Source: Bifidobacterium tissieri
Lineage (GTDB): Bacteria; Actinomycetota; Actinomycetes; Actinomycetales; Bifidobacteriaceae
NCBI RefSeq assembly: GCF_002259645.1
Contig: NZ_MWWV01000014.1
Span: 1-51,921, forward strand
Direction of reading: 5' to 3'
Length of the DNA: 51,921 nt
The notes below the pieces were generated by a model. It was given only the letters and a program-made list of their open reading frames with translations, did not search any database and was not told the DNA's origin. Of the stretch, positions 17,997 to 22,986 are shown piece by piece (positions within the stretch are counted from its first letter, which is position 1; each line of letters starts with the position of its first letter). Both the position numbers and the translations under genes were made by a program.

Positions 17997-18053
17997 TAGG
18001 GGTAATGGTTCGAGAGCGCTCCCCGTCCCACCGACGTTGCCGGTGCAGTCGAC

Positions 18054-18614
18054 TTATCGAATCACCTGCTCCATACCGTCGGCGAACCCATTGAGACGCA
18101 GCCTGCGTAGATGTTCCAGTTCCTCACTCATAGTCCGCGGCGGATTGTCTTTGCTGGCAACGACAGCATGCATCGCGTTCATGATGCTCTCCTGGTCACG
18201 TTCCAGCATCGCGCTTAGGAACTCATCGGGATGAACGGCCTTCACCGCGTATCGTGCAAGGTCTGCGTCCGGGAAGTCCTTGAGATTATAGGTGACAATG
18301 TAATCGGCGTCGGCCACCAGAGCGGCGGCGAGCACATGCCGGTCATCCGGATCCGGCAGTTCAATTGCTGATTCAAGGCGGCTCCAGCCATAGACGCAAT
18401 GGGTGGGATTCATTGGCGTAATGAACGACAGCAGACGATCCACCTGTTCCGGCGTGCGTCCGCGGCGTTCGATCAGCGCACGGCGTGCCTCCTCCAGTAT
18501 GCGCTCGGACCATACGGCATCGATTACCTGCCGCTCATCCAGCGTGAGCATGATGTCCAGCAGCCAGACCGCCGGGAAGATGTTGGCATCAAGCAATACG
18601 ACGAGTTTCGTCAC
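18054..18614 (-). CDS. PIN-domain toxin (VapC-like)
   Basis: Probable ribonuclease toxin of a type II toxin-antitoxin pair. In the 186 residues the PIN acidic residues are visible: Asp9 in VVLLDANIF, Glu41/Glu42 in RILEEARRAL, Asp90/Asp91 in LPDPDDRHVLAAAL and Asp104 in ADADYIVTYNLKDF. A helical C-terminal region follows (SEELEHLRRLRLNG). The start is GTG at 18612-18614 with GGAGATC upstream. It is 18 bp behind the antitoxin gene on the same strand and converges with DUF721. The two stops are 57 bp apart, so the module was dropped right behind the replication operon. RNA target unknown. Confidence 0.85.
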   Translation of the reverse strand: MTKLVVLLDANIFPAVWLLDIMLTLDERQVIDAVWSERILEEARRALIERRGRTPEQVDRLLSFITPMNPTHCVYGWSRLESAIELPDPDDRHVLAAALVADADYIVTYNLKDFPDADLARYAVKAVHPDEFLSAMLERDQESIMNAMHAVVASKDNPPRTMSEELEHLRRLRLNGFADGMEQVIR

Positions 18615-18632
18615 GATACGATCTCCGATGCG

Positions 18633-19046
18633 TCAGTCGAAATTGGCAACGTAGGCCGCATCATCTTCGTCATACAGACCCATCTCCATAGCCGCGCGGC
18701 GCATCGATGACAAGGACTGCTCCATACGCTCGCGCTCACGCCGCTGATAGTCCATCACGTCGGTCACATCCACCATGCGACGACCGGTGGCACCGTTGCG
18801 GGTGAACGGGAGTCGGCCGGAATCGAGGATGCGTGCCACTGTACGGGCCGAGCAATTCAGCAGTTTCGCAGCCTCGCCAGTCGTGATCATACGACGCTGA
18901 CCCATGACGCCAAGAGCAGCGTTCAGCGCGGCCTCGTATGCTTCGGCGTTCAACTCCACAACGTCACCATCGGCGTTGACAAGAGCTCTGTCTCCACGCG
19001 GAATCGTCGTTCCCTTAGACTGGGGCATCTCAAGTACGGCAGTCAT
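18633..19046 (-). CDS. Excisionase-type HTH antitoxin
   Basis: Likely antitoxin and autorepressor for the PIN toxin behind it. The 137 residues have a helix-turn-helix of the MerR/excisionase type at about 53-80 (MITTGEAAKLLNCSARTVAR, then ILDSGRLPF), followed by a wing RRMVDVTDVMDY. The C-terminal ~40 residues are charged and helical (RRERERMEQSLSSMRRAAM), a plausible toxin-neutralising segment. AAGGAGAAACC precedes the ATG. A good promoter lies 23-51 bp upstream. The toxin starts 18 bp after its stop, as expected for a co-transcribed pair with the antitoxin first. Confidence 0.82.
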   Translation of the reverse strand: MTAVLEMPQSKGTTIPRGDRALVNADGDVVELNAEAYEAALNAALGVMGQRRMITTGEAAKLLNCSARTVARILDSGRLPFTRNGATGRRMVDVTDVMDYQRRERERMEQSLSSMRRAAMEMGLYDEDDAAYVANFD

Positions 19047-19068
19047 GGTTTCTCCTTACGTTGACACT

Positions 19069-19097
19069 ATCCTATCAATTCCTGACAAAACTGACAA
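19069..19097 (-). promoter_or_regulatory. Promoter of the toxin-antitoxin operon
   Basis: On the minus strand, TTGTCA (19092-19097) and TAGGAT (19069-19074) are separated by exactly 17 bp. The word TGTCAG occurs twice, 3 bp apart, within and next to the -35 element, and a TTGACAC-like word lies just downstream, so an overlapping operator is plausible. Confidence 0.65.
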
Positions 19098-19194
19098 TAG
19101 TTCGTAATGGTCGTAAGAGTTGACCAACAGACTCATCCAGGTGGTCAGGTTTGCGATGTCGGTTACGGGAAGTGTGTGATGGCGCTGGAGTTGG

Positions 19195-19532
19195 CTATGA
19201 CCGACGTGGGCGAGGCGGCCGACCGTATGGAGGCCATGTTCGCCATGCCTGATGTCAGCCAGTTCATGACGGACAAGGACGCTGGAAGCTCTTCCGGGTG
19301 CCGTGCCGATCACGGAAGTTTTCAAGGCTATACGCGGTGTGCCGCAGGCATTGCCGTGCGTGACCATTGTCGTCCACATCTCATGATTCCGCAGCTCAGG
19401 GAGAAGATCGCGTCACGGTTGGAGGGCATGCCGATCGACCGTATTGTCGTTACCGGCCCCCGTGCCGACACCGTTCGTCATGGCTCCAACGACCGTCTCA
19501 CCGGCCAATGGCGTCCCCGCGGTCGATCCTGA
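19195..19532 (+). pseudogene. Scrambled second copy of the recF-DUF721 junction
   Basis: The sequence reads first as the recF tail (DVGEAADRMEAMFAMPDVSQ, against DVGEVVDRMEALFAVPDVSQ in recF) through FMTDKD. It then jumps by internal deletions to pieces of DUF721: a short RCAAGIA, then AVRDHCRPHLMI. The last part reads PQLREKIASRLEGMPIDRIV onward to the C-terminal WRPRGRS and stop. The order is kept but most of DUF721 is gone. The frame is open from an ATG at 19107 and fuses both tails, so expression is not excluded. I read it as a remnant left by a duplication or recombination that brought in the toxin-antitoxin genes. Confidence 0.85.
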
Positions 19533-19650
19533 AGAATGTGTTGACATTGCATCGAAGACAAGTCGAATCCGGAGCTCAAATTCTTTCACCTGATTTAGAT
19601 AGAGGTAGAATACTAGTGTCTCCGGTCGGATGCATTATATGGAGAAGAAT

Positions 19651-21096
19651 ATGGTCGCAAACTACTGTGCGAGAAAGTGCAAATCATATATTGCCATTCT
19701 TCTCAGCATTCTCGTATTCTTCTCCCCATCCTCCCTGGCATTTGCGGAAACGTCCAGCAAATCACCCATCCCCGCGAATGCTCAGGTATTGGAAAATCCG
19801 AATTGCATTATTTCTTATCCGGACCAATTGGAATTATCTCCAGATGAGAAAACCATCTACGTGTTCACCGGTATTGGCGGGGCAGGCGATACCATATGCG
19901 TTATTGACACGCAGGCCATGCAGATCCGAGGTATTGTAACCCTCCCCGGCCCTAATGCAGGAGATTATTGGAGTCATCCTGTCTTTTCCCCTGACGGGAC
20001 AACCCTATATAGCCTCTATAAGGCCGATGATCGGAATGAGGCCATAGCGGCAATCGACACGACAACGCTCGCCATTTCTCGCACATATCCGCTATCTGGG
20101 GGTGGGCACTTTAAACTTTCACAAGACGGCAAAACTCTAGTCGTGCTCGAGGGGTGGCCGGAGGACTTCACTATTCCAGAGCTACGTACTATAACAACAG
20201 ACGATGGCACAAGTACGCAACCCATACTCTTGCGAGGCCACAACCCGGTCATACAATCCCTCTCGCCCAGCGGAAGGAATTTATATATTCAAGAAGTCGA
20301 CAAACAGGGCACTGCATGGTTGAAATCCATAGATACCTCCACCGGAGCATTCAATGACGTTGCTGAATTACATGATCGAAGCTATTTTATTTCCGCTGAA
20401 ACCTCCGATCATAGCACCCTCTTTGTTCCAGAAAAAGATAATATTGTTGCAATACATACCGACAGCAAAAAAGTGACTCCGCTGATACAGGAACAACATT
20501 CCGTAACGCATCTGTCGGCTTCGAAAGACGGCAATCACCTCCTCATCAATGAATCGATTCGTGACGGTAGTGGAAACGTCATCAAGTCAAATACAAGAAT
20601 CATCAATACCGTCACTGCAGCAACATTAGCCAATACAGATGAGTACCTAACTGCGTTAAGCAAGAAAGGAGATTTTGCATATGGGGTTTCCCTACCGGAT
20701 GATGAGCAAGCTTACACAATAAAAACCATGATTTTATCCACGAATTCACAACCGACAGTACAGTCGGTGACTGTTCCTCATCATCCTCAATATCCACAGC
20801 AATATCAATTAGGATCATATGAGATTTCCTCTGACGGAAAAACTATTTATCAGGTATTCGTCAGCGATCATGCAGTAACCCATGCCGGTTATGCAGATGC
20901 GAATGAGCCAGGATATCTGATGGCCGTTCGCATGCCGGCGTCGGCAACGACACCGCCTGAAGTTGTCGTTGCCGACCATTCCGAAGATCGACGAGCGGCC
21001 GTCTTTGCCATTGTGACGACTATCGCGATCGTCATCTTCGGCTGTGCGAGCATAACTGTGTACCGTCATTTACGTAGAACCAATATCAGACGGTAA
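19651..21096 (+). CDS. Exported, membrane-anchored beta-propeller-like protein 1
   Basis: A predicted surface protein of 481 residues; function unknown. An N-terminal signal peptide (basic ARKCKS, then YIAILLSILVFFSPSSLAFA) is probably cleaved after AFA near residue 32. The body has YncE/WD40-like propeller blades, recognisable by repeated SPDGTTLYSLY, SQDGKTLVVLE, SPSGRNLYIQE and SSDGKTIYQVF motifs. The C-terminus has a single membrane helix (FAIVTTIAIVIFGCASITVY) and a basic tail HLRRTNIRR, so the propeller faces outward. I chose the ATG at 19651 (GGAGAAG just upstream); an ATG seven codons earlier lacks a ribosome site. It is visibly AT-richer than its neighbours, pointing to acquisition. 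Its neighbour at 21218 is a paralogue. Confidence 0.8.
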   Translation: MVANYCARKCKSYIAILLSILVFFSPSSLAFAETSSKSPIPANAQVLENPNCIISYPDQLELSPDEKTIYVFTGIGGAGDTICVIDTQAMQIRGIVTLPGPNAGDYWSHPVFSPDGTTLYSLYKADDRNEAIAAIDTTTLAISRTYPLSGGGHFKLSQDGKTLVVLEGWPEDFTIPELRTITTDDGTSTQPILLRGHNPVIQSLSPSGRNLYIQEVDKQGTAWLKSIDTSTGAFNDVAELHDRSYFISAETSDHSTLFVPEKDNIVAIHTDSKKVTPLIQEQHSVTHLSASKDGNHLLINESIRDGSGNVIKSNTRIINTVTAATLANTDEYLTALSKKGDFAYGVSLPDDEQAYTIKTMILSTNSQPTVQSVTVPHHPQYPQQYQLGSYEISSDGKTIYQVFVSDHAVTHAGYADANEPGYLMAVRMPASATTPPEVVVADHSEDRRAAVFAIVTTIAIVIFGCASITVYRHLRRTNIRR

Positions 21097-21139
21097 TGCT
21101 TATGTACATCTTTTTTATATTACGAAATGCTTCTGATGT

Positions 21140-21185
21140 GGGGGGGGTATTGTAGTAACTATCGACGTTGATAGTATTCGATAGT
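21140..21185 (+). promoter_or_regulatory. G8 tract, possible promoter and 8-bp inverted repeat before propeller 2
   Basis: Eight G's (21140-21147) lie two bases before a possible -35 TTGTAG (21150-21155), with a possible -10 TAGTAT (21172-21177) 16 bp on. An inverted repeat ACTATCGA / TCGATAGT (21158-21165 and 21178-21185) covers the spacer and -10. Length changes in the G run could affect this promoter, but the promoter call itself is weak. Confidence 0.4.
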
Positions 21186-21217
21186 GATGGCATGCCGGTT
21201 CACGAAAGGTGGACGCG

Positions 21218-22701
21218 ATGATCAATGATAAACGCGGGATTCGCATCCTTATATATGTGATGATGATGCTTATGGCAGTCATCCTCGGCATCGCGCCCGC
21301 CCTTCCGGTAAACGCTTCGACCCCCCCCAGACTCAAGTCGCAACTCAGAAAACGCTATCCATTCATGATCCATCCTGCCTGAGCTCGGATTCCATCAATC
21401 TCACGCTCAGCCCAGATGGAAAAACCGCATATGTGTTCACGCGAGGAAGTACCATTTGCGCGATTAATACCGAGGACATGTCCATTCGTCATATTATTCA
21501 CACACCTGCAGATAATAATTCCTATATACGCATTCAGCCGCCCGTTTTCACCTCGGACGGGAACACCATGTTCACTTTATGCTCGGATGATGCAGCGCTC
21601 CGTATTGTCGCGATCGACACCAGAACATTTGAAGTGCAAGATCTGTCCTCCGTTTTGGGAAGCGGCACGGGGATGTTCGACCTGTCTTCGGATGGCTCAC
21701 GGCTGTTTACTATCGGTACGGACGGTGCAGGTCAATGGCAAATGCAGGAATATGACATAGCGAAGAGAACCGTCATTGCCAAACATCGTCTTGAATATCC
21801 TCACAGCATAGGGGGCGTGAAAGGATACGCAGTATCCCCTGATTCCAGTCACTACTTTGCCTCATTGGATACTGATCCCGGAGAGATCAACCAGGGCAAA
21901 CTGATATCGATAAACACTGCAGATGGCTCAATTAGCGATCTGTCATTTGACGTAGCCTCATCAAGACCTGAGATTACAAAGGATCGGAAAACAATATATG
22001 TGTTGTCCAGAGATAAAAAATCCATCATTGCGGTCAATGCGATAGAGAACAGGGCATCTCAGATTTATACAGCACCAAATGGTGAAAAAATCGATGGACT
22101 GGAACTATCCGGTCAGGATAATGCATTGATGTTCACCGAGAACAACAGCATCTCTCGAGTGCTCGACACCAAAACCGACGATGCGACCTACTCTACACGT
22201 TATCAGCATGGAGATTTCATATCTCCCGATGGAGCCACGATCTATGTCACCGACACCTTCTTGGACCAGAAGACACATGCAGTAAAACTACTTGTTCAAT
22301 CGGTCAGTATCGATGCAACAGCAGACCAGCAGAAATCATCATCCGTCGAAGTTTTCAGTTTTCCCGCTGACAACTCACCGCAGAAAGAATTCCAAGCGAT
22401 GTTTTCTTCAAATGGAAGTCTCTATCTGCTGTTCACCGGAGCCGGAGGCGATGGCACTCAACTCAATGACTATACCGATCCGATGAAAGCTGGAATCCTG
22501 TTGAAGGTGCATTCGAGCACGTTTTTGGAATCGGCGAAGAGTCCCCGGATTTCAGCGTCTCCGCAGTCGGAGAACGGTTCAGTGAGGACACAAGGCAGAG
22601 CTGCTGCTGTAGCTGTTGCCGTCGGCTGCTGTGTTGCCATCATTGGTTGTATCTGCATTGCTGCAGAACGCTATGTGCGAAAGTCGAAGTCGGTGAGATA
22701 G
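21218..22701 (+). pseudogene. Beta-propeller-like protein 2, frame broken at a C8 tract (possible phase-variable gene)
   Basis: Paralogue of the preceding gene. The ATG at 21218 (AAAGGTGG upstream) opens a signal peptide (basic MINDKRGIR, hydrophobic MMMLMAVILGIAPALPV, NAS). The frame then enters eight C's at 21321-21328 and stops at 21380-21382. The rest is intact in the +1 frame: SSDSINLTLSPDGKTAYVFT directly after the tract matches YPDQLELSPDEKTIYVFT of protein 1. The propeller continues to a C-terminal membrane helix (AVAVAVGCCVAIIGCICIA) and basic RYVRKSKSVR, ending at 22701. Nine C's would give one 494-residue protein, close to the 481 of its sibling. The downstream frame has no good start of its own. 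The coding part lacks other damage, so this is more likely switched off by slippage (or a sequencing error) than decayed. Confidence 0.75.
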
Positions 22702-22986
22702 GCGTCTGCCCTTCGAAGTCGAAGATGCGATGTGACTGCGCTTAACCGGGCGGCGAGTTCCCCCGTGAGTCCGGATGCTGAGGTGGGAAGTGAAGAGTGG
22801 GCGGATATTGGGGTATATACGGGCGAGGGTCCGGAGATGGTAGTACCCTAATCTCAGTATGTAAAACGCGCGTATGGCCCCATATTTCGAGATTTTGGGC
22901 ATGGTGCCCTTAGGGGAAGCCTCAAAACCTGTGGAAAACGTGAGAATGGGCCCTTGTGCGTCAGGGCTAGTTGGAAAGGACAGTTG
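22702..22986 (+). promoter_or_regulatory. gyrB leader region
   Basis: The 285 bp between propeller 2 and gyrB hold no gene. The last part has GGAAAGGA (22973-22980), which selects the GTG at 22987 as gyrB start over in-frame TTGs at 22954 and 22984. A TGTGGAAAA word at about 22930 resembles a relaxed DnaA box. No convincing promoter was found by eye. Confidence 0.5.

Follow-up and report, generated by a model that had tools for sequence, protein, structure and literature searches.

The window analysed here is a stretch of 51,921 nucleotides from Bifidobacterium tissieri (NZ_MWWV01000014.1), contig C6 of a 2.87 Mb genome in 38 contigs. Between dciA, a DUF721 gene, and gyrB it carries an insert (17997..22783) that is absent from seven genus-mates: B. 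callimiconis 2028B (G001), B. catulorum (G002), Galliscardovia ingluviei (G003), B. pluvialisilvae (G004), B. primatium (G005), B. simiarum (G007) and B. vansinderenii Tam10B (G008). The comparison covered these seven of the eight genus-mates and left out G006. Two propeller genes sit in this lineage-specific insert. One of them is intact (19630..21096, + strand) and encodes 488 residues, or 481 if read from the ATG at 19651, which is the length the sequence-only reading had given; by its open reading frame and by comparison it is a paralogue of the other, 29% identical. The other is divided between two reading frames and is the subject of this work. It had been described as standing among core replication genes. 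The place is right, but the gene got there by insertion and does not belong to a conserved association, and that both propellers lie inside a lineage-specific insert was absent from the earlier account.

The composition of the insert sets it apart from its surroundings. GC content in its propeller part is 0.42-0.52, against about 0.6 in the flanking core genes. By codon position it is 0.49, 0.45 and 0.50 in the body of the divided gene and 0.52, 0.44 and 0.46 in the intact neighbour, compared with 0.63, 0.41 and 0.85 in gyrB. The insert also encodes a PIN_3-domain protein that looks like a toxin-antitoxin partner (18054..18614, - strand; PF13470, E 4.6e-12) and, adjoining it, an HTH_17 protein (18633..19046, - strand; PF12728, E 9.8e-10), followed by a degenerate partial copy of the end of recF and dciA (19194..19532, + strand; 95% over 151 nt and 92% over 91 nt). 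Across 17997-19532 the PIN_3/HTH_17 pair stands between dciA and the degenerate recF-end/dciA copy, as if these had been duplicated on insertion.

The upstream frame of the divided gene runs on the + strand from an ATG at 21218 to a stop at 21380-21382, 54 codons that start MINDKRGIRILIYVMMMLMAVILGIAPALPVNAS, and AGGTGG lies 5 nt before the ATG as a good ribosome site. The feature (21218..21382) was recognized from the frames, by eye and by hydropathy (3.0 across 14 residues) as a signal peptide with a basic n-region, a hydrophobic core and a cleavage-like site, VNA|S, at about 21320. Directly 3' of that site stands a run of eight C's (21321-21328, + strand). The body frame is open from 21232 to 22698 with zero stops. 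Its 449 codons (21325..22701, + strand; homology certain from about 21361) encode a beta-propeller ending in a hydrophobic helix and a basic tail, and no internal stop interrupts them, so the sequence-only reading was right that signal peptide and body are in different frames and that the body has no further stop. Its arithmetic for fusing the two with a ninth C holds as well, since 21218-22701 is 1484 nt, or 2 modulo 3. The gene is otherwise intact on both sides of the C8, as in a simple-sequence contingency locus. We rejected a separate translation start for the body: its earliest start codon is a GTG at 21433, and the Shine-Dalgarno match there is weak and too far spaced to be a well placed ribosome site.

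The exact position of the frame change was approached through homologues. In the body frame, the alignment to an intact 477-residue protein of genome G155 starts at 21325, within the C run. The best body-frame alignments of other homologues start at 21295 (G173c), 21328, 21343, 21352, 21355, 21358, 21361 (three of them) and 21376, and those of two weak homologues start later still; these starts are loose, as the G173c alignment shows by beginning 5' of the tract. Taken with the end of the signal peptide, they nevertheless oblige the shift to lie between about 21321 and 21361, and the C8 is the run present in that interval, as the claimed junction requires. By eye, 13 homologues have a hydrophobic segment at the N terminus followed by a linker of variable length. 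This likeness is a judgement of the eye; blastp matches of the signal-peptide piece were not significant, and an alignment of that short piece to the full homologues was discarded because the piece was misplaced.

We assign the two proteins to the beta-propellers on their sequence repeats. Pfam and NCBIfam repeat models match both of them weakly, below the cut-offs in every case except PD40 on the intact neighbour, and the domain search found no pilin domain in either. The family profile A2, however, matches PDB propellers with a best E of 6.2e-18, among them YncE, lactonase-like and other structures (3vgz, 4qrj, 5c2v_B), so the family resembles these in its propeller repeats. It differs from them in adding the C-terminal hydrophobic helix with its basic tail and in having two Cys that are invariant in all 11 aligned members, one invariant Cys lying at the propeller start. 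A single-sequence AlphaFold model of the propeller had a mean pLDDT of 38.2, too poor for use. Of 189 genomes from the bacterial family, the profile finds members of the propeller family in 12 at E 1e-6, a patchy distribution. Searches with the propeller matched only the window's own two genes in the genus, and close relatives of the body were found in none of the genome contigs, viral contigs or phage records searched. The sequence-only reading had proposed comparing tract length among homologues, and a C/G run of at least 7 is absent from every homologue examined, which counts against a switch. There are frameshifted homologues with no long tract. One is a propeller of G105, broken near a G5, and the other is in G171, where two matches fall in separate frames at a locus devoid of C/G runs of at least 6. 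The G105 locus (L100:5300-6930, - strand) is a tandem pair in which the first copy is intact and the second is split in mid-body, an arrangement that parallels the pair in the window.

C/G runs of at least 8 are unusually common in this genome. In the window 27 runs are 5 long and four are 8 long, while lengths of 6 and 7 do not occur. Genome-wide there are 175 tracts of at least 6, 23 of at least 7, 16 of at least 8, 8 of at least 9, 5 of at least 10 and 2 of at least 11, and the 15 matches to C9 are consistent with these counts. The count drops by 87% from 6 to 7 but by just 30% from 7 to 8. By geometric extrapolation about 3 tracts of at least 8 are expected and 16 are found (P about 1e-7); for a length of exactly 8 the expectation is about 1.2 and the count 8 (P about 3e-5). 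Both values assume that run length declines geometrically. A dinucleotide shuffle of the window gives no significant excess: 4 hits are found where 1.42 are expected, and at least 4 turn up in 9 of 100 shuffles; that model disregards the avoidance of long runs by genes. The homopolymer in this reading frame is therefore longer than chance when judged against the genome's own run lengths, though not by a plain shuffle.

Four of the 16 genomic tracts of at least 8 fall in the window, and two of these flank the start of the divided propeller gene. Besides the C8 there is a G8 (21140-21147, + strand), passed over by the sequence-only reading, which lies 70 nt before the ATG at 21218 and has TATTGT directly after it, making it a candidate promoter-spacer tract. 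A scan for consensus promoters found zero sites around it. The two tracts are 173 nt apart; 16 tracts thrown at random would give any such close pair with P 0.017, a value to be read knowing that tracts cluster elsewhere in this genome too. At five of the 16 (L050:2068, L053:5357, L054:5072, L056:7236 and 21140 in the window) TA(G/T) directly follows the G run, as if the run stood at the end of a promoter -10 box. The window's other two 8-runs (1359 and 1645) are in no evident gene. They are a G8 and a C8, 286 bp apart from start to start, among repeated CCCGCAG/CTGCGGG hairpin-like motifs at 1340-1800, and the C8 at 1645 stands between two such arms.

Some other long tracts of the genome lie near genes for exported proteins. 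There is a G11 upstream of a 964-residue exported CAP-domain protein. The other G11 precedes the frame of an exported protein of at least 1780 residues; a search with its first 780 gave weak, below-cutoff matches to two pilin models. A G8 precedes a frame of at least 1644 residues that has an N-terminal hydrophobic segment. Among the remaining tracts, the neighbours include a VWA-domain protein and transposon-HTH genes; tracts are also found within or ahead of a glycosyltransferase gene, inside a phage tail region and immediately 5' of a family-less protein of 341 residues, and elsewhere nothing obvious is nearby. In a looser scan of the genome for split genes, the propeller tract alone links a strongly hydrophobic N terminus to a long body in another frame. 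Most of the further shifted-frame cases from that scan, in this genome and in G001 (for example L049, L051, L056, L057, L163, L172 and L174), we took to be chance or antisense frames. At L057:4706-6002 (G000 contig 35) a G9 lies towards the end of a frame that precedes a phage tape-measure-like gene, where either a frameshift site or a switch is possible.

Runs of at least 9 are present in all nine genomes of the genus, counting the window's own. Genome G006 is peculiar, with 131 forward and 110 reverse matches to C9, far above the other eight, and at least one run of 21, perhaps through an assembly fault. Our survey of relatives was made on G001 to G005, with G006, G007 and G008 outside it. 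It listed 67 distinct tracts of at least 9 and examined 65, two in B. catulorum lying less than 300 bases from a contig start and being left out. Four of the 65 split coding-like pieces by a filter of codon periodicity and hydrophobicity, which passes over genes whose codon composition is flat, as that of the window's propeller is. In B. callimiconis a G10 splits hsdM, a type I methyltransferase gene (L167:1569-3288; the N6_Mtase profile matches to 101 and then from 108), which we consider a candidate phase-variable restriction-modification system in Bifidobacterium. In B. catulorum a G10 parts the signal peptide and body of an SBP_bac_1 sugar-binding lipoprotein, three residues behind a lipobox-like Cys (L247:1218-2518, - strand), and a C11 splits a secreted GH127 enzyme (L250:2561-6356; profile to 137, then from 148). 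The fourth is a split gene of B. primatium whose pieces have no Pfam match. A further tract, at L165 in B. callimiconis, is in frame inside an exported protein. One tract common to the window's genome and B. callimiconis is 10 long in one and 9 in the other, and another is 10 in both; the sequence beside both aligns poorly.

We believe the best explanation of this locus, held at about even chances from its sequence, is a slow phase-variable contingency locus caught OFF. Most likely it would be a kind of contingency locus already known in Bifidobacterium, acting on a new target. The propeller would be exported and anchored in the membrane, with the C8 in the linker that immediately follows its signal peptide, and replication slippage would alter the length of the tract. 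That length would decide whether ribosomes from the ATG at 21218 enter the propeller frame or halt at 21380-21382. The genome as sequenced would be the OFF state, making a short signal-peptide fragment and no exported propeller, and the upstream G8 may supply a second, transcriptional setting. This explanation is supported because the frame changes at the tract, C/G runs are in excess, relatives have genes split at tracts and slippage of this kind has been published, and also because there is a good start upstream and no plausible one for the body. The closeness of the G8 and C8, the two G11 tracts ahead of exported proteins and the tract that differs by one between this genome and B. callimiconis lean the same way. 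The sequence-only reading, which had proposed such a switch, gains from the same tract excess, frame-change site and split genes and from the experiments of PMC9187656, but the length variation that defines a switch is at this C8 presumed. We infer that tract length shifts among cells of the population, that the propeller is exported when the gene is ON, and that this is relevant to contact with host or phage. It counts against a switch that a C8 is short and would switch slowly, because even the G10 of B. breve is about 93.4% uniform (PMC9187656). The insert missing from seven genus-mates, the plain shuffle of the window, the tract-free frameshifts in the family and the two window 8-runs that are in no evident gene weigh on the same side.

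The main rival, and a serious one, is a young pseudogene, now fixed: a second copy of the propeller, once acquired, would have gone out of frame at a homopolymer prone to mutation, with no switch back. We regard this as possible rather than probable. The low-GC insert missing from seven genus-mates, the patchiness of the family and the two members frameshifted where there is no long C/G tract are all as it would have them, and the body has flat codon-position GC like its intact neighbour and unlike gyrB. The sequence-only reading had taken the intact body as evidence against a pseudogene. The body is indeed undamaged, but the argument is weak because the insert is absent from seven genus-mates and the gene may be too young to decay, so that an undamaged body may merely show youth. 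What a pseudogene explains less readily is that the sole lesion falls on one of the genome's 16 long C/G runs and in the linker of the signal peptide, while the start site survives and another long run stands upstream.

Some fused protein could come from unchanged DNA by programmed ribosomal frameshifting, or by slippage of transcription, at the C run. A C run permits its Pro codons to re-pair after the ribosome slips, and this sequence offers such codons, but the RNA of 21315-21415 has no unusual degree of structure (z -0.66; of 200 shuffles, 44 fold equally well or better), and the tract is missing from the homologues examined, where a programmed frameshift would call for a slippery site to be kept. 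We think this very improbable. An ordinary intact gene misread in sequencing or assembly is unlikely, if less so. Short-read sequencing, if that is what was used for the window's genome, normally reads 8-base runs well, and a long tract would remain in the signal-peptide linker regardless. On the other side, homopolymers are the usual site of such errors, and PMC9187656 warns that annotated G-tract lengths may differ from those of the population. A wrong assembled tract length could likewise mimic an OFF state in the relatives.

A wider idea is offered tentatively, and we doubt it more than we believe it: this Bifidobacterium lineage may use C/G tracts as a general switchboard beyond pili. Tracts in signal-peptide linkers would toggle exported proteins (the propeller and the B. 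catulorum lipoprotein), others a restriction-modification methyltransferase and a secreted glycosidase, and the propeller would have a double lock in its G8 and coding C8. If this is true, slippage switching in beneficial gut bacteria is not confined to pili: it also acts on other exported proteins, on a nutrient-binding lipoprotein and a glycosidase, and on a DNA methyltransferase. A single commensal culture would then be a mixture of surface types, and apparent pseudogenes of Bifidobacterium at C/G runs would need checking as OFF states before being dismissed.

Slippage at such tracts is established in this genus for pili. Penno et al. 2022 (PMC9187656) present experiments on B. breve UCC2003 in which two pilus operons switch with the length of a G tract, and they find that the length varies within one culture. 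Their paper gives tract lengths of 8 to 13 for pilus genes of five species and mentions more intragenic and promoter-spacer tracts with no detail. Three B. bifidum strains in its table have tracts of 9, 8 and 10, and the table is silent on whether these are a single locus; PMC10757668 adds a fourth strain with tracts of 11 and 13. In the excerpts of PMC10757668 and PMC12104195 G-tract switching is applied to pilus genes only, and in that of PMC6109161 the subject is prophage inversion systems. Our searches of an open-licence library brought up no paper that describes a Bifidobacterium propeller switched by a tract. Further afield, Campylobacter jejuni NCTC11168 has 29 poly-G/poly-C loci with runs of at least 7 (PMC4965091). 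Those are alike in having C/G runs of at least 7 inside reading frames that switch expression, but the bacterium is unrelated, and tract-length variation was assayed there whereas the window's locus is known from one sequence.

The closest comparison is the B. breve pilus switch, and the differences are clear. Our gene lacks the marks of a sortase-pilus switch: its C terminus is the hydrophobic helix and basic tail, and its neighbours are dciA, the PIN/HTH pair and gyrB. The target is a membrane-anchored beta-propeller and not a pilin, with no sortase or LPXTG. The run is a C8 on the coding strand where that of B. breve is a G10 or G11, and length variation is established there while ours is a candidate from one genome sequence. 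The likenesses to the system of PMC9187656 are in the design. Both belong to the same bacterial family, both have a Sec signal and a body in two frames, and in both a homopolymer near the 5' end parts the frames while translation starts upstream only.
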